From: Chloroflexota bacterium
GTDB taxonomy: Bacteria; Chloroflexota; UBA6077; FW602-bin22; JAMCVK01
DNA: 64,000 nt
Direction: 5' to 3'
Assembly: GCA_023475225.1 (NCBI GenBank)
Contig: JAMCVK010000024.1
Coordinates: 62,001-126,000 of the forward strand
Shown: in pieces, positions 1 to 16,020 of the stretch
Layout: each line of letters starts with the position of its first letter
Position numbering within the stretch: the first letter of the stretch is position 1
Notes under the pieces: generated by a model
Seen by the model: only the letters and a program-made list of their open reading frames with translations
What the model was told of the DNA's origin: nothing
The model's database searches: none
Made by a program: the position numbers and the translations under genes

Positions 1-662
1 TGAGGCATGCCCTCAGCTATCTTCTTCCCATAGTCGAGCACGAGGACCCGATCGGAGATAGGCATAATTACTTCCATAACGTGCTCAACCAGAAAGAGGG
101 TAATACCCCGGTCGCGCAACCTATAGATCAGCTCTACCGCCTCTTGTTGCTCCTTCGGATTTAAGCCGGCCATGGCCTCATCAAGCATCAACAGTTTTGG
201 CCTGGTCGCTAAAGCGCGGGCCACCTCTAAGCGCTTCTTATCAGCGGTAGTCAGGTTGGCTCCCAGAATGGACTGCTTATCGGCTAGCCCAACGAATTCC
301 AGTACCTCCAAAGCCGTCTTACGTGTCTGCTTGGCGTCCGCTGTGTGGCAGAAGCCGCCCACCATCACATTCTCCAGGACAGTCATATCCTTGAAGATGC
401 GCATAATCTGGAAGGTGCGGGCCAGTCCAAGCTGGCAGATTCGCTCCGGCGTATATCCGGTGATCATCTGCCTGTCAAACCTGACGGAGCCTTCATCCGG
501 CCGGTAGAACCCAGCGATGCAATTGAAAAGGGTAGTCTTGCCTGCCCCATTGGGACCGATCATACCCACGATCTCTCCCTGGTTGACCTCCACATTTATG
601 CGGTCGTTAGCCACCAGGCCGCCAAACCTCTTCGTCAGATTGTTCACTTCGAGAAGAGCCAT
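1..662 (-). CDS. livG: Branched-chain amino acid-type ABC transporter ATP-binding protein LivG (partial)
   Basis: This is a cytoplasmic ATPase of a Liv-type (HAAT) ABC importer that would power uptake through the adjacent LivH/LivM permeases. The C-terminus runs off the left edge. Translating the minus strand from ATG 662 gives MALLEVNNLTKRFGG, a Walker A GPNGAGKTT near residue 39, the Q-loop region, an unusual ADKKRLEVARAL signature region and Walker B LLMLDEAMAGLNP. The LivG-specific GLARTFQ stretch is present. It starts 6 nt after the livM stop, so it is the distal part of the same operon; a LivF partner is expected beyond the edge. The transported compound is not known. The signature region (ATRPKL after ADKKRLE) follows the LivG pattern rather than the canonical LSGGQ. 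Confidence 0.93.
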   Translation of the reverse strand, partial: MALLEVNNLTKRFGGLVANDRINVEVNQGEIVGMIGPNGAGKTTLFNCIAGFYRPDEGSVRFDRQMITGYTPERICQLGLARTFQIMRIFKDMTVLENVMVGGFCHTADAKQTRKTALEVLEFVGLADKQSILGANLTTADKKRLEVARALATRPKLLMLDEAMAGLNPKEQQEAVELIYRLRDRGITLFLVEHVMEVIMPISDRVLVLDYGKKIAEGMP

Positions 663-668
663 CTCAAT

Positions 669-1688
669 TCAACCCTGCCGTCTGAATCGCTGAAGGAGTC
701 CAATCAATCCCTTAGGCTGAAAAACAGCCACAATCGTAATCATGGCCCCATAGGTGATCAGGTGCACGGCCGTCGTGCTGCCCAGGTAAACGCGGGTGAA
801 CTCGGACAAAGGTATCAACATGAGTGCTCCCAGAATAGGTCCCCAGAGCGTTCCCGCCCCTCCGACGACGGCAATAAGGCAGATGATCACCGAAAGTATG
901 AAGTGGAATACCGTCTCCGGATCAATGAACATTAGATACTGGGCATAGAAGGATCCTCCGAAGGCAGTGAAGAGAGCACTGAAGGACATCGCAATCAACT
1001 TATATTTGGTGGGGTCTATGCCCAGGCTGCGTGCCGCATCCAGGTCCTGTTTGATGGCCCGGAAGTAGAAGCCCATTCGCGAGCGCTCAATCCAGTAGGT
1101 CAGAACCATTATGGCTGTAAGCATGGCCAGGCTGATGTAGTAAAAAGGGGCCCGACTCTTAAACTGAAAGTTGATAAATGACTCTTTTAGGAAGGGAACG
1201 TACAATCCTACGGCACCACCAACATCCTGCCAGTTAATAAAGCTGGTTTGGATTACTGAGGCAACGGCGATAGTAGCAATGACAAAATAGTGCCCTTTAA
1301 GTCTGAAGCATGGATAGCCAATGATCAAGGAAACCAGCACAGCCACAAGTCCACCGGCGAGCATCCCTATCCAGGGGCTGATGTTCCAGCGTAATAAGAG
1401 TACAGTTGAAGTGTAGGCGCCAATGCCAAGATAGGCGGCGTGTCCCAATGATACCTGACCGGCATAGCCACCGATGATATTCCAGGCCTGCCCCAACATA
1501 GCGTATAGGAAGATCATAATCATCACGTGCTGTGGGAAGAGCCCGCTGAAGATAAAGGGATAGACCAGGATGAAAACACCTAAACCAATCACTACAGCCA
1601 TCCTGACCAGGCCAAAGGTTGTGAGCGTTTCAACCAGGGGAGCCCGTCTGACCTCAGTTGCACCCTCTACAAGATTCGGCGTTCCCAT
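669..1688 (-). CDS. livM: Branched-chain amino acid-type ABC transporter permease LivM
   Basis: This is the second membrane subunit of the Liv-type importer. About 339 residues contain eight to nine hydrophobic segments and the family motifs GYAGQVSLGHAAYLGIGAY and GGAGTLWGPILGALM. ATG 1688 was chosen because it has GGTGA 7 nt upstream and starts just after the livH stop (1696-1698). A TTG in frame at 1709 would overlap livH by 14 nt and is the alternative. LivM works with LivH as a heterodimeric pore, energised by LivG. Position between livH and livG is the usual order. The substrate is unknown; the linked methyltransferase genes suggest a methylated amine or amide rather than leucine, which is inference. 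Confidence 0.93.
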   Translation of the reverse strand: MGTPNLVEGATEVRRAPLVETLTTFGLVRMAVVIGLGVFILVYPFIFSGLFPQHVMIMIFLYAMLGQAWNIIGGYAGQVSLGHAAYLGIGAYTSTVLLLRWNISPWIGMLAGGLVAVLVSLIIGYPCFRLKGHYFVIATIAVASVIQTSFINWQDVGGAVGLYVPFLKESFINFQFKSRAPFYYISLAMLTAIMVLTYWIERSRMGFYFRAIKQDLDAARSLGIDPTKYKLIAMSFSALFTAFGGSFYAQYLMFIDPETVFHFILSVIICLIAVVGGAGTLWGPILGALMLIPLSEFTRVYLGSTTAVHLITYGAMITIVAVFQPKGLIGLLQRFRRQG

Positions 1689-1695
1689 TTGCTCA

Positions 1696-2562
1696 TCACC
1701 ACTTCCCAAATAGCCCTTGTGGCCGTATCAGCACAACAGTCAGATAGACCAATAAAACGATCGCGTACTTGAAAGCCGGCAGAAAAAGTCCGGCCCAATT
1801 CTCCACCAGGCCGATCAGTATGCCAGCGACGAAGGCCCCGCTGATGCTGCCAAATCCGCCCAGGGCTACCGTCACAAAGGCGGTGAGGGCAAAGATGGAG
1901 CCAACGTTGGGGAAGATGTAATAATAGGTGGCTAACAGCGCGCCGGCGATGCCCACACAGGCGGCACCTATCCCCCAGGCGATGGCGAACACACGATCGG
2001 TATTTATGCCCATCAGGGCGGCTGCCTCTTTGTCCTCAGCCGTCGCTTCGAGGGCCCGTCCCGTCTCTGTTCTAGCGATTAACCAGTAGATGAAGGCTGT
2101 GGCCACGATGGCTCCCACCGAGGCTAGCAGTTGGGGTGTACCGACGAATACGCCCTTAAATACCTCAAGGCGCCCACTGGCCAGAGACACTTGAATCAGC
2201 CTATAGTTGGCTGTCCAGAGAAATTGGGCTGTGGCTTGCAGGAAGACCATCAGACCGAACGTGGCGAAGATTTGAGCTGACATAGGGGCGGCCAGAACGC
2301 GACTGATGATCAGCTTGTGCGTGAGCACGCCGATCATGAATAAAAGCAAGGCGCAGATGGGCAGGGAAACCAGCGGATCCATGGCGAAAAGCACATATAA
2401 CCAGTACGCGGTATACATGCTTATCATCAAGAACTCCCCATGGGCGAAGTTCACGATATCCATAACGCCGTAGATCAGGGTAAGGCCAAGGGCGATCAGG
2501 GAATAAACTAACCCCATCAACAGACCGTTGAGCATTGCTTGGGCCAATGCCTCAGGCTGCAT
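1696..2562 (-). CDS. livH: Branched-chain amino acid-type ABC transporter permease LivH
   Basis: This is the first permease of the Liv-type importer, 288 residues and the normal family length. LivH hallmarks are visible: GLVYSLIALGLTLIYGVMDI with NFAHGEF following near the N-terminus, EDKEAAALMGIN in the cytoplasmic loop that contacts the ATPase, and a GGFGSISGAFVAG segment near the C-terminus. It has about eight transmembrane helices. The ATG at 2562 is preceded by TGGAGT. It is separated from the binding-protein gene by a 75-nt spacer holding a strong hairpin, and is followed by livM after a few nucleotides. Confidence 0.93.
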   Translation of the reverse strand: MQPEALAQAMLNGLLMGLVYSLIALGLTLIYGVMDIVNFAHGEFLMISMYTAYWLYVLFAMDPLVSLPICALLLFMIGVLTHKLIISRVLAAPMSAQIFATFGLMVFLQATAQFLWTANYRLIQVSLASGRLEVFKGVFVGTPQLLASVGAIVATAFIYWLIARTETGRALEATAEDKEAAALMGINTDRVFAIAWGIGAACVGIAGALLATYYYIFPNVGSIFALTAFVTVALGGFGSISGAFVAGILIGLVENWAGLFLPAFKYAIVLLVYLTVVLIRPQGLFGKW

Positions 2563-2637: not shown

Positions 2638-3999
2638 CTATTTTCGCTCGCTCCACTTCGGGATGGGCCAGATCACGTCCTTTGCGGCCAACTCGAAGGG
2701 CCAAACGGTGTAGTATACCTCGCCCTGTGCTTGAACCACGATTCCCCGTCCAAGGATGTTCTGTCCGGTATTCGGATCGAACTTCACGCCGTCCCAGGGC
2801 ATGATCAGCTGGTCGCCGGGGATATTAGTCTCAAGCAAAGCCTTGCGGATAGCCTCCGGGCTGGTGGAACCAGCGCGGTTAATAGCATCCAACATCGTTA
2901 ACGTTCCGGTGAAGTTACGTGAAGATACGCCAGTCATATTAGCCCCATAGCGCTGCTTGTAGAGATCATTAACGGCCTTCACCAGAGGCTTCTTCCCGGC
3001 CAGGTCCAGAGCGAACACCTCGCGACTTAATATGTAGTTGCCATCCTTTCCTACCGTCTTCAGAAAATCTGACTCGATGAAGCCGGCATCCTGGGCGATC
3101 ACGGCCAGCGGATTGTAGTCCAGCTGCTTGAAGGTCCTTACCATCAGGATAGCGTCGGAGATGTAGGAGGTAGGCATCGCGATATCGGCCCCGGAACCCT
3201 TCAGTTTCTCGACCTCGCTACTGAGAGAGGCGGTATTGGCTGGATAGGGTATGGTCGTCACTACATCATTGCCGTACTCCTTGGCATATTGAGCCTCAAA
3301 CTTGGCCGAGTCGGTGCCGAAAAGGGTATTCTCGTGGATGAGGGCGATCTTCTTGACTGCAATGCCCTTTTTCTTCTTCAAATCCTCCAGGAACTGGAAG
3401 AAGTTCTGAGCGAACGTTTGATCGTGTGGGGTGGTGCGGAAGAACCACTTCAGGCCCTGTTGGGTTAACATTGGGGAGGTGGAGATGGGAGTCAGGAGTG
3501 GCACTCCCAACGATTCGGCCGCCCTGCTGGCCACAGCGGTGACTGAACTGGCGTAGGTACCGACGATGGCCACCACCTTCTCACTAGTGATCAACCGTTC
3601 TACCTCAGCCTTGCCCTTCTCCGGGCTGCCCCCATCATCTGCGAAGACGAGCTTGACTTTTGCTCCACCAAGATTAGGTAGTCCCTCTGTCTTAGCCAGG
3701 GGCATGTTCAAGTCATACTTGCCATTAACAATTTCGGCCAGCAGTTCAGAGCCGTTTTTCATCTCCAACCCAGCCGGACCCTGAGGGCCTGTCAAAGGAG
3801 CGAGGACGCCTACTTTTATCTCCTTCACGACCACGGGGGTGGGACTAGGTGCCGCAGCTGGCTTAGTTGCTTCCGCTGCCGGCTTAGCGGCAGTAGGGGT
3901 GGGTGTCGGCGCGGCGGCCTTCTCAACACAAGCAGACAGCAAGACACCGATTAACAGAAATACCAACGACATCCCCAGAACTTGCCCTATCTTCTTCAT
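2638..3999 (-). CDS. Liv-type ABC transporter substrate-binding lipoprotein
   Basis: This is a periplasmic-binding-fold receptor (LivK/Peripla_BP_6 family) for the adjacent Liv importer, about 453 residues. MKKIGQVLGMSLVFLLIGV followed by LLSAC is a lipoprotein signal peptide. After the cysteine comes a low-complexity Pro/Thr/Ala linker typical of Chloroflexota, then the family start IKVGVLAPLTGPQGP. The longer reading frame begins at 4128, but ATG 3999 has GGAGG 8-9 nt upstream and begins the signal peptide, so it is taken as the start. The ligand cannot be read from the sequence. Being downstream of a corrinoid methyltransferase operon, it may bind that pathway's substrate. Confidence 0.92.
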   Translation of the reverse strand: MKKIGQVLGMSLVFLLIGVLLSACVEKAAAPTPTPTAAKPAAEATKPAAAPSPTPVVVKEIKVGVLAPLTGPQGPAGLEMKNGSELLAEIVNGKYDLNMPLAKTEGLPNLGGAKVKLVFADDGGSPEKGKAEVERLITSEKVVAIVGTYASSVTAVASRAAESLGVPLLTPISTSPMLTQQGLKWFFRTTPHDQTFAQNFFQFLEDLKKKKGIAVKKIALIHENTLFGTDSAKFEAQYAKEYGNDVVTTIPYPANTASLSSEVEKLKGSGADIAMPTSYISDAILMVRTFKQLDYNPLAVIAQDAGFIESDFLKTVGKDGNYILSREVFALDLAGKKPLVKAVNDLYKQRYGANMTGVSSRNFTGTLTMLDAINRAGSTSPEAIRKALLETNIPGDQLIMPWDGVKFDPNTGQNILGRGIVVQAQGEVYYTVWPFELAAKDVIWPIPKWSERK

Positions 4000-4102
4000 A
4001 TCAATTTCCCCTCCTTCAGTGAATGCATCGAATGGGGGGTGTTCGAAAGCGCTTCTCAATTTGAACCCCACCATTTTGAGGGATTTTAGAAAGAAAGCCA
4101 CT

Positions 4103-4129
4103 GTTGGGGTACACCCCCAGACCCCCAAC
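4103..4129 (-). terminator. Hairpin in the 220-nt gap between DUF6282 gene and livK
   Basis: GTTGGGG (4103-4109) pairs with CCCCAAC (4123-4129). On the minus strand the stem is followed by a pyrimidine-rich CTTTCTTTCT, so a weak terminator or attenuator between the methyltransferase genes and the importer is possible. A second perfect 7-bp hairpin (AGGCGTT/AACGCCT, 4181-4198) lies closer to the upstream gene and has no T-run. The intact reading order suggests partial rather than full termination. Confidence 0.4.
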
Positions 4130-4219: not shown

Positions 4220-5092
4220 CTATAGGTTTAGCAACCATCGTGGTATTTCTACCATCATGGTGTGCAGGTCCACTTCGCTGATGCCTTTCTCATAGAGACA
4301 CTGAGCCAGAATGCGCAGGGCCTCGGGAGGCATTGGATTGTGTCGTTGTCCTGTGTCCGTGACAAGAATGCAATTACCGGCTCCCAGGATGCTTATGGCT
4401 TCACGGACCCGGTCCAGATTGTTGCCTGGCCAGGCCCACATGGGGGAGAGCCCACAGTAGTCGATCTCCACCTTTGCTCCCAGGTTCACCAGCTCTTTTA
4501 GCGGCCCCAGGTCAAGGTTCGGTATTTTGAAGAAGGGGTGATTGATTATCATCCGACGAACGCCATGCTCCCTGGCACCACGTAGCAAGGCCAGGATCTC
4601 CTCGGGGGAAAGGTGTCCTGTTCCCAGAGCGACATCGTATTGGGCGATTAAGGCAAGTACGTTCTGTGTGTCATCGGTCAGTCGTCCATTACTTAATATG
4701 GTGATGCCTTCCTGGGTGCGCTGCCCCCCGGCCTGGACGTCGTATCCACCGGTGAAGCCGAATATCCGGGCATGATTGGCGGCGTCGATAGTGGGCATCC
4801 AAATGATCTTGCCTCCTAGCTTAAGCGTGGCTTCTACAGCCGCTGGGTTGAGGCCACCGACATAGCGGTTCAGGACTATACCACCAAAAACCTTAATCTC
4901 TGGAAACTCTTGTCCTACCAGATAGGCCCGGCTAACGGTAGCCTCGTGATGGCATTTGAGGACGATGGCCTGCATCCCGGTCTCTTGTGCAGCCCTGGCC
5001 ATCGCCCGATCATCAGCCAGGCGGTGGAACAGGCAGGGGTGAGAATGGATATGGATATCAATGGCTCCCTGCACTGATACCATATCGGTCAT
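4220..5092 (-). CDS. DUF6282-like amidohydrolase-fold protein
   Basis: This 290-residue protein looks like a metal-dependent hydrolase of the amidohydrolase/PHP type, closest in my recognition to the DUF6282 family. An N-terminal DIHIHSHP (near residue 11) is a metal-binding HxHxH pattern. Further candidate ligands are CHHE near residue 47, GTGHLSPEE, INHPFF and a C-terminal TDTGQRHNPMP. The substrate is unknown. Its ATG overlaps the stop of the mtmB-like gene by 4 nt (ATGA), implying translational coupling and a shared job. A possible role is hydrolysis of an amide or ring in the methylated substrate or its product, which is inference. Confidence 0.75.
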   Translation of the reverse strand: MTDMVSVQGAIDIHIHSHPCLFHRLADDRAMARAAQETGMQAIVLKCHHEATVSRAYLVGQEFPEIKVFGGIVLNRYVGGLNPAAVEATLKLGGKIIWMPTIDAANHARIFGFTGGYDVQAGGQRTQEGITILSNGRLTDDTQNVLALIAQYDVALGTGHLSPEEILALLRGAREHGVRRMIINHPFFKIPNLDLGPLKELVNLGAKVEIDYCGLSPMWAWPGNNLDRVREAISILGAGNCILVTDTGQRHNPMPPEALRILAQCLYEKGISEVDLHTMMVEIPRWLLNL

Positions 5093-6480
5093 AACGCTCT
5101 ACCCTGAAGGATAGTTTTCCATCTGAGCCCCATAGATTCGAGTTCCTCTCTAACCCGATGATATAGTTCAAGGTATTCCGGTTTGGGAATGCCCCGGGCG
5201 ACATCGAAACAGTCCTGGTATCGTTGGCCGATGGGGGCATGCGGTATCGAATCCTCGTACCGATCCAGAAGGGACTTAACAACCTCGTTAGCCTCTTTCC
5301 GGGTCATCCCGGTGGTGGCGTGGGCCACCTCGGTCGCGAATTGCGGTTCTAGCGGAGTCATATAGTCGACGTGTGTGGCCTTGGCCGTTCCTTCGGCCTC
5401 GATCGACCCGCCGGAAACGACGGCGGCGATCACCCAGGCAGCCGTCTCGTAGAGACACATTTCTGTCACGGGCCCAGCAGCGACATACCCCAAGTCCAGG
5501 AGTGGGAAATGGCTGTTGCGACTGATGGCCTGGGAGCTGACGCTCAAGGCCCATAAGGTATTCCGACAGGTAGTGCAGCCATAAGCAAAATGAGTGGGGA
5601 ACGGATGATGGAACGTAGCGCGCTTCACCAGGATGCCCTCCAGATTGTAGGCCACCGTCACCACAGCCGTACCTTCTGGCCCACCGGCGTAGCCACCAAG
5701 AAGCGTTCCTGTTTCGGAGAGCCAGTTGAGCCCTGTATTCAATAAATAGGCAATCTTATTCAACAGGTCGAAGTTGATCTTCAGTTCAGCTAAGGAAGCG
5801 ATCTCCCAGGCATCCCCGGCCCCCAGGCCGAACTGGCTGCCAGCCAGTGTAGCCATGCCAGATACAGCTGTGGCTATGCCATTGATAATGGGTAGACCAG
5901 GCCGTCCAGCGCGGCGAATGGCCTCTTTAGAAAGGACTACAGTTCTGATCGCTCCCTCGATCTCCAACGGCGTCCCAGCTACAACTTCCTGTCCATTGAT
6001 AGTGGCTAGGCTGGGCGTAGTGATGGAGTCAGCCAGAGGGATGGCGGCATACCACTGCACCAGGCTGGCCAAAATCTCCTCATTGGAGGCACCCCCGCCG
6101 GCCGCACCTACCGAACACCACGGTGGTTCGCTGCTTTCAGGGCGCCTGGCGATCAGCCTCTTGGCCTCCTTCCCCGTACCTAAAATGGGTCCAATGGGGG
6201 CAGAGGCGATAGCCTCGTTGAGCTCCTCCGCGCTGAACTTGATGATCCGTTCACTATCGACACAGTATGTCCCTACATCTCGATAAAATTCCATTCCAGC
6301 CATAAACAGCCGGTCGGCTAACCCATCGTCGGCCGGTATCGGGTTCTCTGGATCATACCTGATATCGTATTTGCGGATTACCTCCCGTAGTTTGGGTACG
6401 AAAACTCGCAGGTTAAAATCGTTCTCTGAACAGACTGGGCCGCTAAGGGCCCTATTAACCACCTCAGCGAAACTGACCAT
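5089..6480 (-). CDS. MtmB-like methylamine:corrinoid methyltransferase without pyrrolysine
   Basis: This 463-residue protein resembles monomethylamine methyltransferase MtmB over its whole length (MtmB is about 458). Recalled MtmB landmarks have clear counterparts: GRPG at 192-195, ELKI near 232, GGYAGGPEG at 262-270 and GPVTEMCLYE at 336-345. In Methanosarcina MtmB the catalytic pyrrolysine (UAG) lies four residues after GRPG. Here that codon is ATC, Ile199 (5884-5886), and the frame has no amber codon at all. The family transfers a methyl group from a methylamine to a cognate corrinoid protein, and such a protein is encoded 5 nt upstream. Without Pyl the substrate is probably not monomethylamine; non-Pyl MttB relatives use quaternary amines such as glycine betaine. 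Family certain, substrate unknown. Confidence 0.88.
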   Translation of the reverse strand: MVSFAEVVNRALSGPVCSENDFNLRVFVPKLREVIRKYDIRYDPENPIPADDGLADRLFMAGMEFYRDVGTYCVDSERIIKFSAEELNEAIASAPIGPILGTGKEAKRLIARRPESSEPPWCSVGAAGGGASNEEILASLVQWYAAIPLADSITTPSLATINGQEVVAGTPLEIEGAIRTVVLSKEAIRRAGRPGLPIINGIATAVSGMATLAGSQFGLGAGDAWEIASLAELKINFDLLNKIAYLLNTGLNWLSETGTLLGGYAGGPEGTAVVTVAYNLEGILVKRATFHHPFPTHFAYGCTTCRNTLWALSVSSQAISRNSHFPLLDLGYVAAGPVTEMCLYETAAWVIAAVVSGGSIEAEGTAKATHVDYMTPLEPQFATEVAHATTGMTRKEANEVVKSLLDRYEDSIPHAPIGQRYQDCFDVARGIPKPEYLELYHRVREELESMGLRWKTILQGRAL

Positions 6481-6485
6481 GCCCT

Positions 6486-7148
6486 TTAGCCTCTCTTTCT
6501 CTCAGACATCAGTTGCAGAGCGACCTTGACTGCATCATCGGCCGTCGCCCCATAGCCGTCTGCTCCTATCTTGTTAGCCCACAGTTGATCGACTGGAGCA
6601 CCGCCCACCATCACCTGATATTTTTCCCTGAGTCCTTGCCCTTTGAGGTGCTCAATGACATCCTTCTGGTTAGGCATCGTCGTTGTCATCAGGGCAGAAC
6701 AGGCTATGATATCGGCCTTCGTCCTTTCAGCAGCCTCGACAAAGGCTGAGGCAGCGATATCGCTGCCCAAATCATACACTTCGAATCCCGCTGCTTTCAA
6801 CAAGGTGGCGACAATATTTTTACCGATCTCGTGAATATCACCTTTAACCGTGCCGATGACGACCGTACCAGCCCTCAACGTCTCCTTGTTGTCCCTGGTC
6901 ATCCTTGGCTCCAGCACGGCCATCGCTGCTTTCCAGGCCTCAACGGCCAACATAACCTCTGGCAACCAGATTTCGAAGGCACGCCACTTGTCGCCCACAG
7001 TCCGCATGCCAATCAGGAGCCCCTTTTCTACCGCTTCGACGGGTGGAATGCCCTCCTGTAGAGCCTGTTCTGCGGCAGCTGTTGCCGCGGTGACATCGCC
7101 AGCGACGATGGCCCTGGCCAGCGCCTGTAAAGTCGCTTCGTCTGACAA
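6486..7148 (-). CDS. Corrinoid protein of the methyltransferase system (MtmC/MttC-type)
   Basis: This 220-residue cobalamin carrier receives the methyl group from the MtmB-like enzyme. Residues 1-90 form the methionine-synthase-type helical cap. Residues 93-215 form the B12-binding Rossmann domain with DIHEIG at 104-109; His106 is the expected lower cobalt ligand. SAL at 151-153 and MVGGAPV at 180-186 complete the DxHxxG-SxL-GG signature. It starts at TTG 7148 behind AAGGAGG. Size and signature match MtmC, MtbC and MttC. The methylcorrinoid:acceptor methyltransferase (MtbA, or a tetrahydrofolate-dependent MtgA-type protein) and a RamA-type activator are not in this window. Confidence 0.94.
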   Translation of the reverse strand: MSDEATLQALARAIVAGDVTAATAAAEQALQEGIPPVEAVEKGLLIGMRTVGDKWRAFEIWLPEVMLAVEAWKAAMAVLEPRMTRDNKETLRAGTVVIGTVKGDIHEIGKNIVATLLKAAGFEVYDLGSDIAASAFVEAAERTKADIIACSALMTTTMPNQKDVIEHLKGQGLREKYQVMVGGAPVDQLWANKIGADGYGATADDAVKVALQLMSERKRG

Positions 7149-7167
7149 TGAAGAATACCTCCTTGTG

Positions 7168-7875
7168 TTATTGTAAGCTGCTCAATATGTCAAGGTCAGC
7201 TTTCACCTGCAGTCGCTTGAGGGCTGCCCACAGTGAGGCCTGGTTGCTCGTCACCACTGGCTTGCCCAGCACCTTAGAGAGAGGCACAATTATCTCGAAG
7301 GTGCGAAAGTTGGTGCAGCTGATAAAGAGGACATCCGAGTCCTTATCGTTGAATTCATAGGCTAGTTTGAAAGCTTCGGCTGGATGTTGCCGGCCTATCT
7401 CGGTGTTATCCACAATCCCTAATCCCCGTACCTGCGTTACCTTAAATCCGTTGTCCTCAAAGAAGATCCGTTCCCGCTCGTTGATCTCAGTGATATAGGG
7501 AGTGAAAATCTCCACGCGTTTGGCCTTAAGGTGAGTCAGGGCGTCCAAAACGGCGTGGGAGGTCGTCAGTGTCGGTATCCCGGTAGCCCCTTCCATCTGT
7601 TCTTCAAGTCGCCTATCATAACCCTTTCCTTCGATGAAGCTGCCACTGGTACAGCCATAAAGGATCAGATCAGGTCGACAATCAGCCAGGAGTTGTGCCC
7701 CTTGGACACAGGTAGAGGCCATCGCCCGAAGCACCTCTGGCGTCACATCAACGCAGGGCATCCGTGCCGTGTGTAGTGACACAGAAGGAGGCAAATAGTG
7801 GCCGAATTCGAATTCCATTGTGGTGTTCGATGAGGGAATAAGTAGCCCGAGTCTCTTCCTGGGCTCGCCTAACAT
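7168..7875 (-). CDS. Maleate isomerase/Asp-Glu racemase superfamily enzyme
   Basis: This cofactor-independent enzyme belongs to the maleate cis-trans isomerase/arylmalonate decarboxylase branch of the Asp/Glu racemase superfamily, about 235 residues. Two catalytic cysteines are visible, Cys75 in YGCTSGSF and Cys187 in ISCTNFRT, the pair used by maleate isomerases. The N-terminal LGLLIPSSNTTME is typical of that family. ATG 7875 was chosen because GGAGG lies 8 nt upstream; GTG 7884 would overlap the ribosome binding site. It is the first gene of the group racemase-corrinoid-mtmB-DUF6282. It may isomerise or racemise a carbon skeleton made from, or feeding into, demethylation. The real substrate is unknown. 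Confidence 0.85.
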   Translation of the reverse strand: MLGEPRKRLGLLIPSSNTTMEFEFGHYLPPSVSLHTARMPCVDVTPEVLRAMASTCVQGAQLLADCRPDLILYGCTSGSFIEGKGYDRRLEEQMEGATGIPTLTTSHAVLDALTHLKAKRVEIFTPYITEINERERIFFEDNGFKVTQVRGLGIVDNTEIGRQHPAEAFKLAYEFNDKDSDVLFISCTNFRTFEIIVPLSKVLGKPVVTSNQASLWAALKRLQVKADLDILSSLQ

Positions 7876-7970
7876 ACTAACCACCTCCTCACTCGCCTTA
7901 GGTCATTATGGGGTTGTAATCAACATTGTGATGTCCCGAAAACTGAAATTCTGCTCGATTTACGGTATAG

Positions 7971-8300
7971 CTAATCGAAGGCCACGGCCAGGTCCCTGAT
8001 CAATGACTCCTTCTCCAGAGGCCCGACCATCACCCGCTCCCCCGGCCGGACAATCGTGTGGCAGGCCTTGACCGCTTTGCCTCCCAAGCGGAGGCGACAG
8101 CTCCCACAGATGGCCCGCCCGCAGTGATAGTCACGGAAGGCTAGGGTTGGGTCCAAATCCTCATAGATATGCCTGAGCAAGGCCAGGAGGGTCGTTTCCC
8201 GGTCAGATAGGATGCGATATGTTTGGAGAGTGGGTTCACCTTCCGCCTGGGGGTCATAACGCAAAATGTCAACGATAATCTCCTTGGCAGGTTCCTTCAT
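7971..8300 (-). CDS. 2Fe-2S subunit, SdhB/FrdB N-terminal domain only
   Basis: This small iron-sulfur protein of 109 residues matches only the N-terminal plant-ferredoxin-like domain of succinate dehydrogenase/fumarate reductase subunit B. Cys60, Cys65, Cys68 and Cys80 give the CxxxxCxxC...C pattern for one 2Fe-2S cluster. The C-terminal dicluster domain of normal SdhB (about 240 residues) is absent; the frame stops at TAG and the following 95 nt do not encode it. Its start lies 3 nt after the flavoprotein stop, so the two form an electron-transfer pair. The partner that gives or takes electrons is not seen. Confidence 0.85.
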   Translation of the reverse strand: MKEPAKEIIVDILRYDPQAEGEPTLQTYRILSDRETTLLALLRHIYEDLDPTLAFRDYHCGRAICGSCRLRLGGKAVKACHTIVRPGERVMVGPLEKESLIRDLAVAFD

Positions 8301-8303
8301 TGT

Positions 8304-10013
8304 CTACGATGCCTCCTCATCTAGCCGGATGGTGGGCACAAGTGTGCTGATGATTCTGTTGTTGTTGCGCCGCAGCAGGGTATGCTGTGGCCAGCCATCG
8401 GCCATCTCGGGGTAATCGGTTCGAAAATGGTGACCACGGCTCTCCTTGCGCAACATGGCTGCTGTGGCCACCGCCTCAGCCAGATCAATCATTCCAGGCA
8501 GTTCTAGCGCCTCTCGCCAATCATTATTGAAATGAGTCGTCCCCATGACACGGAGATGTGGTAGATCCTCCTCGCGCAATTGTCCCAAGTCTGCTAGAGC
8601 CTTCTGTAAGCTAATCTCATCTCGCTTATGTCCCAGATATGTCTGCACGATAGCCTGTAGATGGCGCTTCACCTGGCGAGGTCGCAGGTTACCATCTTTT
8701 CGCTCCAGCACTGAATAGGCTGCGGCCGCTGCCTGCTCTACCTCTTCAGGCTCTATTTCTACCCGCTTCCCCAAAGCCTTCGCTGCTTCGGCGGCAAAGT
8801 GGCCTGCCCGTGTGCCAAACACTTGGGTCTCGGCCAGGGCGTTACCAGACAAACGGTTTGCTCCGTGCACGTTACCGGCCACCTCTCCGGCTGCGTAAAG
8901 CCCGCTGATATTTGTCTCTGTCCTCTCATTGATGCGGATGCCTCCGAGGGTGTAATGGGTGGCGGGGGCTACTTCGATGGGCTGACGCCGAATATCAATA
9001 CCGACATCCCGCAAGTTATCGTAGGGCAGAGACATTAGTCGATTCAGGATCTCCTCTACCTCTTCTGCACCCCTTGGTGACTTGGCAATATCGATATACA
9101 GACCGCCGTGCACCGTCCCTCGGCCCTGCTCTATTTCGTCGAACATAAGGCGCATAAACACGTCGCGTACCGGCAAGGGGCCAGATGGTAAGAACTCTTC
9201 GCCCTTTGCGTTTAGCATCTTGCCGCCGACATGCTCCTCATATAGCAGCCCCTCATATTGCACTACAGTGCCACGAAGATGAGGAGGATAGACCAGCACA
9301 GTGGGGTAAAAGAGCATCATTTCCATATCGACCAATTCTGCTCCGATGGTGTAGGCCAGCGTGGCCCCATCACCGGTGCTGTCCGGAGACGCATCGGTTT
9401 TCTCCCAGAGCGCCTCGTAGCCCCCCGTTGCTAGCACCACCGCCTTAGCGGAGAAGGCGTAGAGGGCACCACAGCGGAGATCAAGAGCGGTTGCCCCCAC
9501 GACCCTACCGTTCTTAGTCAGTAGCCTGGTCACCATATGGTCCTCAAGCACCTTGATCTCGGGATGCCGGCGCAGCTCCTTTTTGAGGCCAGCTATCAAT
9601 CCGTAGCCACCGCCCTGAATGACCAGGTTTCGAGGATAGGTCTGGCCAGGGTGCCAGACCTGCAAGAAGCGTTCACCATCCTTGCGGAACTTAACGCCAT
9701 ACCTTTCCAGTTCGAGCATTCGCGGTATGGCCTCGGTGGCCAACGCCTTGGCCAGGTTCTGATCGCTGAGATATCTTCCTTCACGTACCGTATCCTGGAA
9801 GTGTATTTCCGGGTTATCACGGGAATCGCGGTGGCCGAGGGCTGCTTCAAAGGAGGGATAAGCCATGGGAGTCAAGCCGCTCCGGCTCAGAGCGCCCTTA
9901 CAGAGTAGGGTACAGCGAACGCCTTGGGTGCTGGCCTCTATGGCTGCTCTTGCCCCTGCTCCACCGCCCCCAATGACTAGGACATCAGTTTCAACAGTCT
10001 GATAGGAGACCAT
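8304..10013 (-). CDS. Fumarate reductase/succinate dehydrogenase-type flavoprotein
   Basis: This 569-residue FAD protein belongs to the FrdA/SdhA/L-aspartate oxidase family. It has the dinucleotide fold VLVIGGGGAGARAA near residue 12, the active-site stretch ATHYTLGGIRI, and GANRLSGNALAE carrying the catalytic-type Arg. Odd points: the RSHTxAAxGG motif that carries covalent FAD reads RSGLTPMAYPS, so FAD should be non-covalent, and the usual QFHPT reads LFYPT. Fumarate or succinate as substrate is therefore unproven. ATG 10013 is preceded by GGGAGG at 4 nt; TTG 10025 is the alternative. It pairs with the 2Fe-2S protein and follows the XRE/cupin regulator in the same direction. Confidence 0.85.
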   Translation of the reverse strand: MVSYQTVETDVLVIGGGGAGARAAIEASTQGVRCTLLCKGALSRSGLTPMAYPSFEAALGHRDSRDNPEIHFQDTVREGRYLSDQNLAKALATEAIPRMLELERYGVKFRKDGERFLQVWHPGQTYPRNLVIQGGGYGLIAGLKKELRRHPEIKVLEDHMVTRLLTKNGRVVGATALDLRCGALYAFSAKAVVLATGGYEALWEKTDASPDSTGDGATLAYTIGAELVDMEMMLFYPTVLVYPPHLRGTVVQYEGLLYEEHVGGKMLNAKGEEFLPSGPLPVRDVFMRLMFDEIEQGRGTVHGGLYIDIAKSPRGAEEVEEILNRLMSLPYDNLRDVGIDIRRQPIEVAPATHYTLGGIRINERTETNISGLYAAGEVAGNVHGANRLSGNALAETQVFGTRAGHFAAEAAKALGKRVEIEPEEVEQAAAAAYSVLERKDGNLRPRQVKRHLQAIVQTYLGHKRDEISLQKALADLGQLREEDLPHLRVMGTTHFNNDWREALELPGMIDLAEAVATAAMLRKESRGHHFRTDYPEMADGWPQHTLLRRNNNRIISTLVPTIRLDEEAS

Positions 10014-10058
10014 AAAACCTCCCAAGGTTAGGATCGACGCAGCGGCGTCGCTATATGG

Positions 10059-10625
10059 CTAGAAAGTGGGTGGCGTTATAACCCAGATTAGTTCTAGGTC
10101 CTCGGTTCCGATATTGCGCCAGCGGTGTGGGCTTGTACTTTTGAAGTAGATGGAATCCCCTGCCTCGAGAGTATACGTATTGTCATTGATCTCGATCTGC
10201 ATCGTCCCTCTTTGCACGAAGCCGCACTCTTCGCCCTCATGGCGGTAATAGCTCTCGCTACCAACCCCAGCCGCCGCTCTGATGTAAAGGAATTCCATCC
10301 TGCCTTGTAGATTAGGAGAAAGCAGCTCGTAATGAATGTTTGAACCGGGATAGACGAGACTCTTTCGGCTGTGCTTCCGAACGACAACCTCGTCGCTACT
10401 CTCTATCTTACCCTCCCTTGGGGGAGGCTTGACCTTCTCAAAAAAGGAGGCGATGGGCACGCCGAGGGCTTCAGAGATGGCCTTGAGGGCAGACACGGAT
10501 GGGGTAGCCAGATTGCGTTCGACCTGGCTGATAAAGCTAGGGGAGAAGCCGGTCATCTGAGCAACCTGGCGAATCTTGAGATTCTTCGCCATTCTGGCTA
10601 GTCGCAGCTGGGCGCCAAGGTCCAT
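10059..10625 (-). CDS. XRE-family transcriptional regulator with cupin sensor domain
   Basis: This 188-residue regulator has an N-terminal helix-turn-helix (residues about 5-60, including TGFSPSFISQVERN) and a C-terminal cupin_2 domain (about 110-186, including GEECGFVQRG and DSIYFKSTSPHRW). Such proteins (PuuR/SutR type) usually sense a small metabolite and repress or activate the adjacent catabolic operon. It is the first gene of the minus-strand cluster and sits 45 nt before the flavoprotein gene, so it is the likely regulator of the cluster. The inducer is unknown. Confidence 0.92.
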   Translation of the reverse strand: MDLGAQLRLARMAKNLKIRQVAQMTGFSPSFISQVERNLATPSVSALKAISEALGVPIASFFEKVKPPPREGKIESSDEVVVRKHSRKSLVYPGSNIHYELLSPNLQGRMEFLYIRAAAGVGSESYYRHEGEECGFVQRGTMQIEINDNTYTLEAGDSIYFKSTSPHRWRNIGTEDLELIWVITPPTF

Positions 10626-13070: not shown

Positions 13071-14177
13071 ATGAAAAGGCAGTTTTTGATGCCGATCATT
13101 ATTGTGGTACTGCTTGGTGTCCTAGCCAGTGCCTGTGCCCCAGCAGCTGCCCCGACTCCTACGCCAACCAAGCCACCTGCCCCACCAACGGCGGCACCAA
13201 CCCCTGTAGCTGTAGCCACCCCCACACCAATGCCACCGACGCCAACCAAGCCAGCGGCACTACAGAAGATCACCTTCACCACCGATTTCGGCTTCTTCGG
13301 TCGCCACGCACCCTACTACACGGTTCTGGATAAGGGCTTCTGGAAAGAGGCTGGGTTCGATGTGACTATCGTGCGCGGGGCAGGTTCCCTCGATGCCATC
13401 AAGATGGTCGCAGCGGGCAAGGCCGACTTTGGCTTCGCTGATAGCGGGGCACTGATCATCACGCGGGCCAATGAGAACGTCCCTGTCAAAGAGCTGGCCA
13501 TCATCTACCAGAAGGCCCCGCAGGCCATCTACTGCCTGGAAGAGTCCGGGATCAAGAAGCCTAAGGACCTGGAGGGTAAGGTTCTCTCTGATTCAGCGGC
13601 CAGCGCTGTCCCTAAGCTCTTCCCGGCGTACGCCAAGCTGGCCGGCATCGATGCCAGCAAGGTCACCTGGAAGTTTGTCGACCCTGCTACACTACCAGCC
13701 CTTCTAGCTGCTAAGCAGGTCGATGGTATCTCTCAGTTCATGCCGGGTGAGCCGATGCTAGAAAAGGCGGTGGCTCCCAAGAAACTGGTCCGCCTGGCCT
13801 ACGCTGATGCTGGTATGGAGATGTATAGCAACGGTATCATCGCCACTGATGAGACCATCCAGAAGCAACCGGACATGGTACGGCGCTTCGTTTTGGCGAC
13901 CCTGAAGGGAGTCCAGTATGCGCTGGATCATCCGGATGAGGCTGGCGCTATAATGAAAAAGTACCATCCAGAAGGGGACGCAGCCATTTATGCGGCTGAG
14001 GTGAGGATAGTGCGCCAGCTGGCCATTACCGACGACACTAACAAGTACGGCCTCGGCTACATCGACCCGAAGCGTATGGAGAAGACTCGCGATTTGCTGA
14101 GCGAACCCTTGGGAGCCAAGCGGATCGTGGCGGTTGAGGAACTTTACGCGCCGGGCTTCCACCTGCCGAAGCCTTAG
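13071..14177 (+). CDS. NMT1/THI5-like ABC substrate-binding lipoprotein
   Basis: This is an extracytoplasmic solute receptor of the SsuA/NMT1/THI5 family, 368 residues. The N-terminus has a basic start, a hydrophobic stretch and lipobox VLASAC, then a Pro/Thr/Ala linker to about residue 65. The binding fold begins with KITFTTDFGFFGRHAPYYTV and contains KGFWKEAGFDVTIVRGAGS, characteristic of pyrimidine-, sulfonate- or taurine-type receptors. An AAAGGAGG site precedes the ATG. No permease or ATPase gene is nearby, so it is an orphan receptor here. The neighbour downstream is a ThDP enzyme, and pyrimidine or thiamine precursors are one possible ligand, but this is a guess. Confidence 0.88.
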   Translation: MKRQFLMPIIIVVLLGVLASACAPAAAPTPTPTKPPAPPTAAPTPVAVATPTPMPPTPTKPAALQKITFTTDFGFFGRHAPYYTVLDKGFWKEAGFDVTIVRGAGSLDAIKMVAAGKADFGFADSGALIITRANENVPVKELAIIYQKAPQAIYCLEESGIKKPKDLEGKVLSDSAASAVPKLFPAYAKLAGIDASKVTWKFVDPATLPALLAAKQVDGISQFMPGEPMLEKAVAPKKLVRLAYADAGMEMYSNGIIATDETIQKQPDMVRRFVLATLKGVQYALDHPDEAGAIMKKYHPEGDAAIYAAEVRIVRQLAITDDTNKYGLGYIDPKRMEKTRDLLSEPLGAKRIVAVEELYAPGFHLPKP

Positions 14178-14268
14178 GGGCTGGTTTCCTGGCGACCTGA
14201 TATTTAAAGGGCTGGTGGGCGCTGGATAACTGCTAGCTCCTGACCGATGTAACGGAGAGGTAAGGACC

Positions 14269-16020
14269 TTGGGACAGCGCGAGTCCACCTGGGTCGAACT
14301 GCCAGCAGAAGAGGTAGGTGATGTGCTCGTTGAGGCGATGGCCCTTGGTGGAGTCGAATACCTATTTTTCACCTCCGGGTCTGATATCATCTTCTACCAG
14401 GAGGCGGTGGCCAAGGCCCATGCGTTAGGTCGTCCTGCACCGAAGCTCATCACCGTGTTGCATGAGAACGTGACCCTCAACGCAGCCATGGGGTATACCA
14501 TGGTCACTGGACGCCCCTCTGCTACTGCTGTCCATGCGGACTTGGGCACGCTCAACTACGGAGCTGCCATCCACACCGCTGCCCGGGGCGGCTACCCTGT
14601 CCTGATGACGGCCGGGGCTGGCCCTCGAGCCTATAGCGGGACCATGCGGGGCGACCGCGACCATGTGGTCTACTGGCTTCAGGAGGTTCGCGATCAGGGC
14701 GAGCTGGTCCGACAGTACACCAAGTGGGATTACCGCCTGGAGGCCCAAGATAATCCTGGATTGGTAGTCAGTAGAGCATTGCAGGTCGCGCTGAGCGAGC
14801 CGCCCGGGCCGGTCTACCTGAGCATTCCCCGGGAGATTGGCATGCTGCCAGTCCAGGGGGCACATTTCCCTACCCCTCAGCAACTGGGGCTCCCGGAGCG
14901 GCTCGCGCCCGACCCCGAGGCCATCACCAGGCTCGCACGCTGGCTAGTTGAGGCTAACAATCCAGTTATCATTGATGGGCGCAGTGGTCGCCACCCCGAG
15001 GCGGTAGGTGCGCTGGTCCGGCTGGCCGAGCTATTGTCCATCCCCGTGCGGGGGACTGGCTGGCGGGACCGTCTCAACTTCCCTACTAATCACCCGCTCT
15101 TTGGGGCTGATCCCCCGCTCTATCAAGCCGATGTGGTGCTGGTAGTTGAGAGTGCTGTACCCTGGGTGCCCGGCCCCGAGGCGCCCGGACGCCAGGCTAA
15201 GATCGCCTTCCTCGACGTTGATCCCATAACCCAGGCTATCCCGACCATGGAGTTCACCGCAGACTTGCGCCTCCAGGCTGATAGCGCCCGGACGCTGATT
15301 GACCTGTACGAGGCGGCCACAAAGCTCTTATCCTCCTCCGGCCGTTGCCGCTGTGTTGATCGCCTTGAGCGACTGCAGGTGGTCAAGCTCGAGCGAGAGC
15401 GGCAGGCTGAGTGCCTAGCCATGGAGGCGGCCAGAGAGCGGCCTATCAACCCACGCTGGCTGGCCTATCAGGTTGGCCAACTAGTTGGGGAAGAGGCTAT
15501 CCTACTAGATGATGCTCTGAGCAATTCCCATCTGGTCCAGACCTACTGGCGCAGCAGCCGGCCTGGCTCTCTATTCCGGACGGGAAGCAGTGCCGGGGGC
15601 TGGGGTCCGGGGGCAGCCTTTGGAGCCAAGCTGGCCGCCCCTGACCGGGATGTGGTGCTAGCCGTGGGGGATGGCTATTACATATTTGGAGTACCCCTTG
15701 CAGCTCTCTGGTCAGCAGTACACTACAAGGCTCCCTACCTAACTGTGGTCTTCCAGAACAGCAGCTACAGCACTGGTACCTGGGAGGTTCATAACTTCTA
15801 CCCAGACGGCTACGCGGCAAGGGATGCATTCGAAGGTGGTATCTTCGATCCGCCGCCAGATTTTGCTAAGGAGGCCGAGTCCGTGGGTGCCTACGGTGAG
15901 AACGTGTACGAGCCGGAAGAGGTGGCGCCGGCTCTGCGGCGGGGGCTGGAGAAAGTGCAACAGGGGACTCCCGCGGTCATCGCTGTGTGGCTACCTAAAC
16001 TAGGGCGAAGAATAACATAG
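14269..16020 (+). CDS. Thiamine diphosphate-dependent enzyme, acetolactate synthase/decarboxylase family
   Basis: This 583-residue protein has the three-domain layout of the POX/ALS/benzoylformate-decarboxylase group. The N-terminal Pyr domain carries the catalytic Glu in VLHENVTLNAAMG. A central Rossmann domain spans roughly residues 210-350. The C-terminal PP domain has the Mg/ThDP motif GDGYYIFG...FQNSS, ending in NS rather than the common NN. Start is TTG 14269 with GGAGAGG 8 nt upstream. No ilvN-type regulatory subunit follows and the match to true acetolactate synthases is partial, so a 2-oxo-acid decarboxylase or ligase with an unusual substrate is more likely. The convergent aldehyde dehydrogenase could oxidise its product. 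Confidence 0.82.
   Translation: MGQRESTWVELPAEEVGDVLVEAMALGGVEYLFFTSGSDIIFYQEAVAKAHALGRPAPKLITVLHENVTLNAAMGYTMVTGRPSATAVHADLGTLNYGAAIHTAARGGYPVLMTAGAGPRAYSGTMRGDRDHVVYWLQEVRDQGELVRQYTKWDYRLEAQDNPGLVVSRALQVALSEPPGPVYLSIPREIGMLPVQGAHFPTPQQLGLPERLAPDPEAITRLARWLVEANNPVIIDGRSGRHPEAVGALVRLAELLSIPVRGTGWRDRLNFPTNHPLFGADPPLYQADVVLVVESAVPWVPGPEAPGRQAKIAFLDVDPITQAIPTMEFTADLRLQADSARTLIDLYEAATKLLSSSGRCRCVDRLERLQVVKLERERQAECLAMEAARERPINPRWLAYQVGQLVGEEAILLDDALSNSHLVQTYWRSSRPGSLFRTGSSAGGWGPGAAFGAKLAAPDRDVVLAVGDGYYIFGVPLAALWSAVHYKAPYLTVVFQNSSYSTGTWEVHNFYPDGYAARDAFEGGIFDPPPDFAKEAESVGAYGENVYEPEEVAPALRRGLEKVQQGTPAVIAVWLPKLGRRIT

Follow-up and report, generated by a model that had tools for sequence, protein, structure and literature searches.

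The best characterised homologue of MtmB to lack pyrrolysine (Pyl) is MtqB of Methanococcoides methylutens, which acts on tetramethylammonium and choline and was characterised in March 2026 (PMC13044021); in the published MtmB tree of 1,061 sequences, most non-Pyl members have no function assigned to them and MtqB alone has been characterised biochemically (PMC13044021). Two further relatives without Pyl have been described, namely EmtA of the estrogen methyltransferase EmtABCD, reported in 2020 as MtmB-related (PMC7448270), and an MtmB-superfamily protein whose fold change was the largest of a dichloromethane proteome (PMC9768040). The locus presented here lies in a stretch of 64,000 nucleotides from a Chloroflexota bacterium (contig JAMCVK010000024.1, or C24, positions 62,001 to 126,000; hereafter the window) and encodes an MtmB-family methyltransferase without Pyl beside its corrinoid protein. 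An earlier, sequence-only reading of this DNA held that no non-Pyl relative was known for the MtmB family. With MtqB, EmtA and the dichloromethane-induced protein in print that claim falls, and the window protein is an uncharacterised clade member of the already published non-Pyl MtmB relatives rather than the first of them.

An intact MtmB-family gene without pyrrolysine

The mtmB gene of the window is an uninterrupted open reading frame (ORF) of 463 codons with a terminal TGA. No in-frame TAG was found in it, and the UAG at position 202 that marks a canonical Pyl-MtmB is absent. The Pfam MtmB profile (PF05369, curated cut-off 25 bits) matches the protein with 328.7 bits over 448 residues, covering profile positions 4-450 of 450, and MtmB chains were the only matches in a sequence search of solved structures. 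AlphaFold modelling from an alignment of relatives gave a mean predicted local distance difference test score (pLDDT) of 93.1, and the model superposes on MtmB of Methanosarcina barkeri (1L2Q) with template modelling (TM) scores of 0.94/0.95 and a root-mean-square deviation of 1.5; given the length and score of the profile match and the TM of 0.94, the family match is not due to chance. The full-length homologue described by the sequence-only reading is thus real, and it resembles M. barkeri MtmB further in its equal length, ~31% identity and adjacent corrinoid protein. MtgB and other non-Pyl enzymes of the MttB family (9YCE) are comparable as Pyl-free corrinoid-dependent first methyltransferases (MT1) with a TIM-barrel-type fold and a similar system logic, but theirs is another family: the window protein has no PF06253 match and its model reaches a TM of only ~0.5 to MttB and MtgB structures.

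The residue that takes the place of Pyl was previously given as Ile199. Codon 199 is indeed ATC (Ile), followed by AAT (Asn) at codon 200, and Ile199 faces Pyl202 in two MAFFT L-INS-i alignments, whereas the HMMER alignment and another MAFFT run place Asn200 there. The placements differ because the clade of the window protein carries one extra residue. Across the 26 sampled rows of this clade the stretch mostly reads GRPGLPI[M/I]N, and Asn200 is kept in every member inspected in the alignment.

Glu229, Glu259 and Tyr335 of MtmB, which we take to be active-site residues with a catalytic role (numbering checked on 1L2Q), correspond to Glu226, Glu256 and Tyr332 of the window protein, whereas Leu330 stands in for Gln333. 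Among the aligned relatives displayed, Glu at MtmB position 229 is found outside the Pyl-MtmBs in the window protein only; Glu at position 259 is kept in several members of its clade, and five paralogues from the same genome lack Glu at both positions. An active site with two MtmB glutamates but without Pyl is relevant to the question of why MtmB requires Pyl.

The host genome (2.74 Mb, 96.9% complete) encodes six MtmB-family genes, none with an internal stop, and three MttB homologues. Profile searches of this genome for the Pyl machinery, which the sequence-only reading had called for, found neither pylS (best PylS score 20.3 bits, cut-off 178) nor pylD (best PylD score 22.6 bits, cut-off 150).

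Relatives were collected by scanning GTDB genomes with an alignment of homologues as the query; a contig scan with the single protein recovered none, and none of the plasmids searched carries one. Orthologues are 57% identical in a Spirochaetes metagenome-assembled genome, 55% in Aerophobetes, 53% in Dehalococcoidia, 49-53% in Bathyarchaeota and 44-46% in Thorarchaeota, Anaerolineales, Desulfosarcina and Phycisphaerae, and less in others. The clade spans several bacterial and archaeal phyla (support 100/98 to 100/100), and within it the window protein forms a subclade with L048, L049, L050 and L065 (98-99/91-92). The Pyl-MtmBs fall with probable MtqBs and other non-Pyl homologues of methanogens in another, strongly supported clade, so that the window protein, from a bacterial host, is distant in the tree from M. 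barkeri MtmB; the five paralogues from its own genome make up a third group. No characterised member of the 26-row clade was found in the literature. The identity of the gene, its fold, the absence of Pyl, the intactness of the system and the distinctness of the clade can be stated with confidence.

The gene cluster and its partners

The mtmB gene sits in a cluster of 15 genes on one strand, ~15.9 kb from the regulator gene to the HyuB gene, with gaps of at most 91 nt (Table 1); the last five genes, from LivG to HyuB, lie wholly or partly past the window edge. The corrinoid gene is directly upstream, its end 5 nt from the mtmB start, and its product scores 226.4 bits against TIGR02370 (cut-off 215.3). 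The mtmB and DUF6282 genes overlap by 4 nt. The close corrinoid partner, as well as the maleate-isomerase-like and DUF6282 genes in the same operon, are therefore as originally described. Maleate isomerase is the closest relative of the Amdase-like protein, whose Cys78 and Cys190 lie approximately where maleate isomerase has its cysteines. The AlphaFold model of the DUF6282 protein (pLDDT 58) is too poor for interpretation. The best solved relative of the HyuA-like protein is the N-methylhydantoinase 7HK5 (497.6 bits, against 383.4 bits for 5-oxoprolinase).

Table 1. Genes of the mtmB cluster in their order along it; positions are those of the window, or of contig C24 where so marked
Feature	Position	Strand	Basis
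XRE-family regulator with cupin domain (PuuR-like), first gene of the cluster	10059..10625	(-)	
Fumarate reductase/succinate dehydrogenase-like (Frd-like) flavoprotein	8304..10025	(-)	
Small [2Fe-2S] ferredoxin-like protein	7971..8300	(-)	Fer2_3
Amdase / maleate-isomerase-like enzyme, Asp/Glu-racemase superfamily	7168..7884	(-)	nearest to maleate isomerase; Cys78 and Cys190
Cognate corrinoid protein, 220 aa	6486..7148	(-)	TIGR02370 above cut-off; DxHxxG at residue 104
Non-Pyl MtmB-family methyltransferase, 463 aa	5089..6480	(-)	Pfam MtmB, alignments, AlphaFold model
DUF6282 protein	4220..5092	(-)	amidohydrolase-like metal-ligand pattern (DIHIH, H160, H185, D246)
LivK-like amino-acid/amide substrate-binding lipoprotein	2638..4128	(-)	
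LivH-like permease	1696..2562	(-)	
LivM-like permease	669..1709	(-)	
LivG-like ATPase, cut by window edge	1..662	(-)	named from gene order and sequence
LivF	C24, beyond window	same as cluster	
Creatininase-family protein	C24:60423-61229, beyond window	same as cluster	
HyuA-like	C24:58356-60371, beyond window	same as cluster	
HyuB-like	C24:56774-58405, beyond window	same as cluster	

A corrinoid methyl-transfer system pairs an MT1 with a DxHxxG corrinoid protein encoded beside it, as here, and needs a second methyltransferase and a reductive activase, both of which are available at the level of the genome. The search proposed for acceptor methyltransferases and reactivases returned three pterin-binding MeTr-type (methyl-tetrahydrofolate-type) methyltransferases and two RACo homologues, all encoded outside the mtmB cluster. 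One RACo gene shares a locus on contig C41 with genes for AcsE and the delta and gamma subunits of carbon monoxide dehydrogenase/acetyl-CoA synthase, and on contig C38 a MeTr-type gene immediately precedes a paralogous corrinoid-MtmB pair. This bacterial genome also encodes a homologue of formylmethanofuran:tetrahydromethanopterin formyltransferase (FTR), whose gene is next to those of an MttB homologue and a corrinoid-protein-like product (L011, own contig C38, 1-1911).

Throughout the clade of the window protein, nearly all loci have a corrinoid gene beside mtmB, and in L052, L053 and L060 MtrH follows directly and RACo is also present. Genes of the Asp/Glu-racemase superfamily lie nearby in each of the three nearest-subclade loci whose flanks are long enough (the window, L050 and L065), the contigs of L048 and L049 being too short for neighbourhood comparison. 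The L050 locus carries a diaminopentanoate-dehydrogenase-like gene, an aminotransferase, an HpcH-type aldolase and an Asp/Glu racemase; that of L065 carries a peptide-binding protein, an Amdase, an aminotransferase, a 2-oxoacid oxidoreductase and CoA ligases, as well as an Asp/Glu-racemase-like protein that scores just under the Pfam cut-off. Peptide-type ABC transporter ATPases are found in the Thorarchaeota loci. Because of these racemase, aminotransferase and peptide-transport genes, the neighbourhoods are read as pointing to an amino-acid-type substrate.

Proposed function and competing explanations

The reading we prefer, and regard as an even call, is that the window protein is the substrate-specific MT1 of a Pyl-free corrinoid demethylation system for an N-methylated amino-acid or hydantoin-like substrate. 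This substrate would be bound in the MtmB-like barrel at the C-terminal ends of the strands, the place of Pyl in MtmB, by means of Glu226, Glu256 and Tyr332, the acidic and aromatic side chains that have been kept. From there its methyl group would move to the cob(I)alamin of the neighbouring corrinoid protein. The cofactor would be reset by RACo-type reactivases encoded elsewhere in the genome, and a methyl-tetrahydrofolate-type methyltransferase would take the methyl group into the Wood-Ljungdahl pathway. LivKHMGF may import the amino-acid-like N-methyl compound, and HyuAB, the creatininase-family protein and the DUF6282 protein may hydrolyse it; the most plausible candidates are of the N-methylhydantoin, creatinine or N-methyl-amino-acid type. 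We infer the direction of methyl transfer, the acceptor used and the substrate class: catabolic transfer to the corrinoid and then to methyl-tetrahydrofolate is moderately likely, while an N-methyl amide, hydantoin or amino acid is a tentative choice of substrate.

The sequence-only reading had also expected a new substrate, partly on account of DUF6282. A substrate other than monomethylamine is indeed likely, but the DUF6282 clue is weak because the family occurs in 20 of 61 related genomes, MtmB matches occurring in 3 of 101. DUF6282 was accordingly rejected as a specific marker of these clusters, and a search for literature on it found no paper. Stronger clues, to which that reading did not refer, are the amino-acid-type ABC transporter, the creatininase-family protein, HyuA/HyuB and the racemase-fold enzymes in relatives.

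Several points weigh against an N-methyl amino-acid or hydantoin demethylase. Without Pyl, an enzyme would be expected to depend on an activated methyl group (quaternary, sulfonium or with a good leaving group), which is not obvious in simple N-methyl amino acids. The cluster encodes no acceptor methyltransferase. The HyuA, HyuB and creatininase-family scores are lower than the curated NCBIfam equivalog cut-offs, so that the reactions of these proteins can be named only tentatively. Furthermore, no HyuAB- or creatininase-type hydrolases were seen beside the closest orthologues; the hydrolase argument thus concerns one cluster, and other members of the clade may use a different substrate, or the presence of the hydrolases may be a coincidence.

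The protein may instead act on a different activated methyl donor, for instance a sulfonium or methoxy compound, a halomethane or the betaine of an amino acid, with the hydrolases acting on the demethylated product or on a different compound. This is a serious minority possibility: betaines are substrates of non-Pyl enzymes in the sister MttB family, the protein most induced on dichloromethane is a Pyl-free member of the MtmB superfamily (PMC9768040), and the amino-acid-like neighbours are compatible with betaines too, yet nothing in the cluster is specific to betaines, sulfonium compounds or halides, and the substrates suggested by HyuAB and the creatininase-family protein are cyclic amides. 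A demethylase of quaternary amines (choline, tetramethylammonium) like MtqB, the best characterised non-Pyl homologue (PMC13044021), is improbable. Both proteins adjoin a corrinoid gene, and the probable MtqBs L190 and L194 carry Ile or Val in place of Pyl, comparable to Ile199. These two Methanococcoides proteins serve as stand-ins, called probable MtqBs from a corrinoid gene directly upstream and their Met-Cys pair (CMCP) and not from the published MtqB sequence; L144-L148 were dropped as MtqB candidates, having no adjoining corrinoid gene and fitting less well. Judged on L190 and L194, the window protein is no MtqB, since they cluster with Pyl-MtmB (14 rows, 99/97) outside its own clade (26 rows, 100/100), it has SETGT in place of the conserved Met-Cys pair, and its cluster encodes an amino-acid-type transporter and amide hydrolases instead of choline functions.

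Reversal of the reaction, in which breakdown of a compound would begin with its methylation by methylcobalamin, is very unlikely. EmtA, compared here by description only, provides the precedent, being described as MtmB-related and without Pyl and proposed to methylate estrogens (PMC7448270), but relatives of the window protein have MtrH and RACo as partners, an arrangement of methyl-catabolic systems, and no steroid or S-adenosylmethionine-regeneration genes were seen at this locus. Least credible of all is a decayed or misassembled, functionless MtmB, to which the missing Pyl codon might point. It is already contradicted by the intact ORF and corrinoid partner, by the very high model confidence and by orthologues of 42-57% identity in several phyla that also lack Pyl and conserve the clade motif.

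If the window protein demethylates a hydantoin-like or N-methylated amino-acid compound, one non-Pyl clade gains a concrete, testable substrate class, and the locus bears on how methyl groups of dissolved organic nitrogen enter anaerobic carbon metabolism. It is conceivable, although we rather doubt it, that the clade as a whole represents Pyl-free MtmB enzymes with a new function, distributed over bacteria and archaea, namely the transfer to cobalamin of methyl groups carried by N-methylated amides or amino acids, with N-methylhydantoin and creatinine as examples; no published corrinoid enzyme with this activity was found.

Other non-Pyl MtmB groups and neighbouring genes

Non-Pyl MtmBs outside the window clade include L007-L010 from the same genome (contigs C42, C8 and C14) and L072-L090. 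BmpA/NupO-type nucleoside ABC transporter genes lie beside such MtmBs at 10 of 19 loci (L073, L074, L079-L082, L084, L086, L089 and L090) and, at ≥40% identity, in none of 22 window-clade loci; some of these outside MtmBs adjoin xanthine-dehydrogenase-like and deaminase-like amidohydrolase genes. Those beside nucleoside transporters may demethylate N-methylated nucleosides or nucleobases; a search for literature on corrinoid demethylation of methylxanthines found no paper.

Methanogens hold a further non-Pyl form with Met at the Pyl position (L144-L148, L189 and L191, from Methanococcoides and Methanolobus), which in Methanococcoides has an ATPase-like gene and a HyuA-like gene as neighbours and no adjoining corrinoid gene. 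Within the window itself, the opposite strand at 13071-16020 encodes an SsuA/NMT1-like substrate-binding lipoprotein, recognised by eye, and then a thiamine-diphosphate-enzyme-like protein, taken from the ORF list only. In G006, a genome of the same order as the window genome (2.9 Mb, an estimated 74% complete), the MtmB family is unusually expanded, with 15 matches in at least two sequence groups on contigs C112, C14, C16, C22, C171 and others. In-frame TAG or TGA codons as Pyl in these paralogues were considered and rejected, as the codons are terminal stops.

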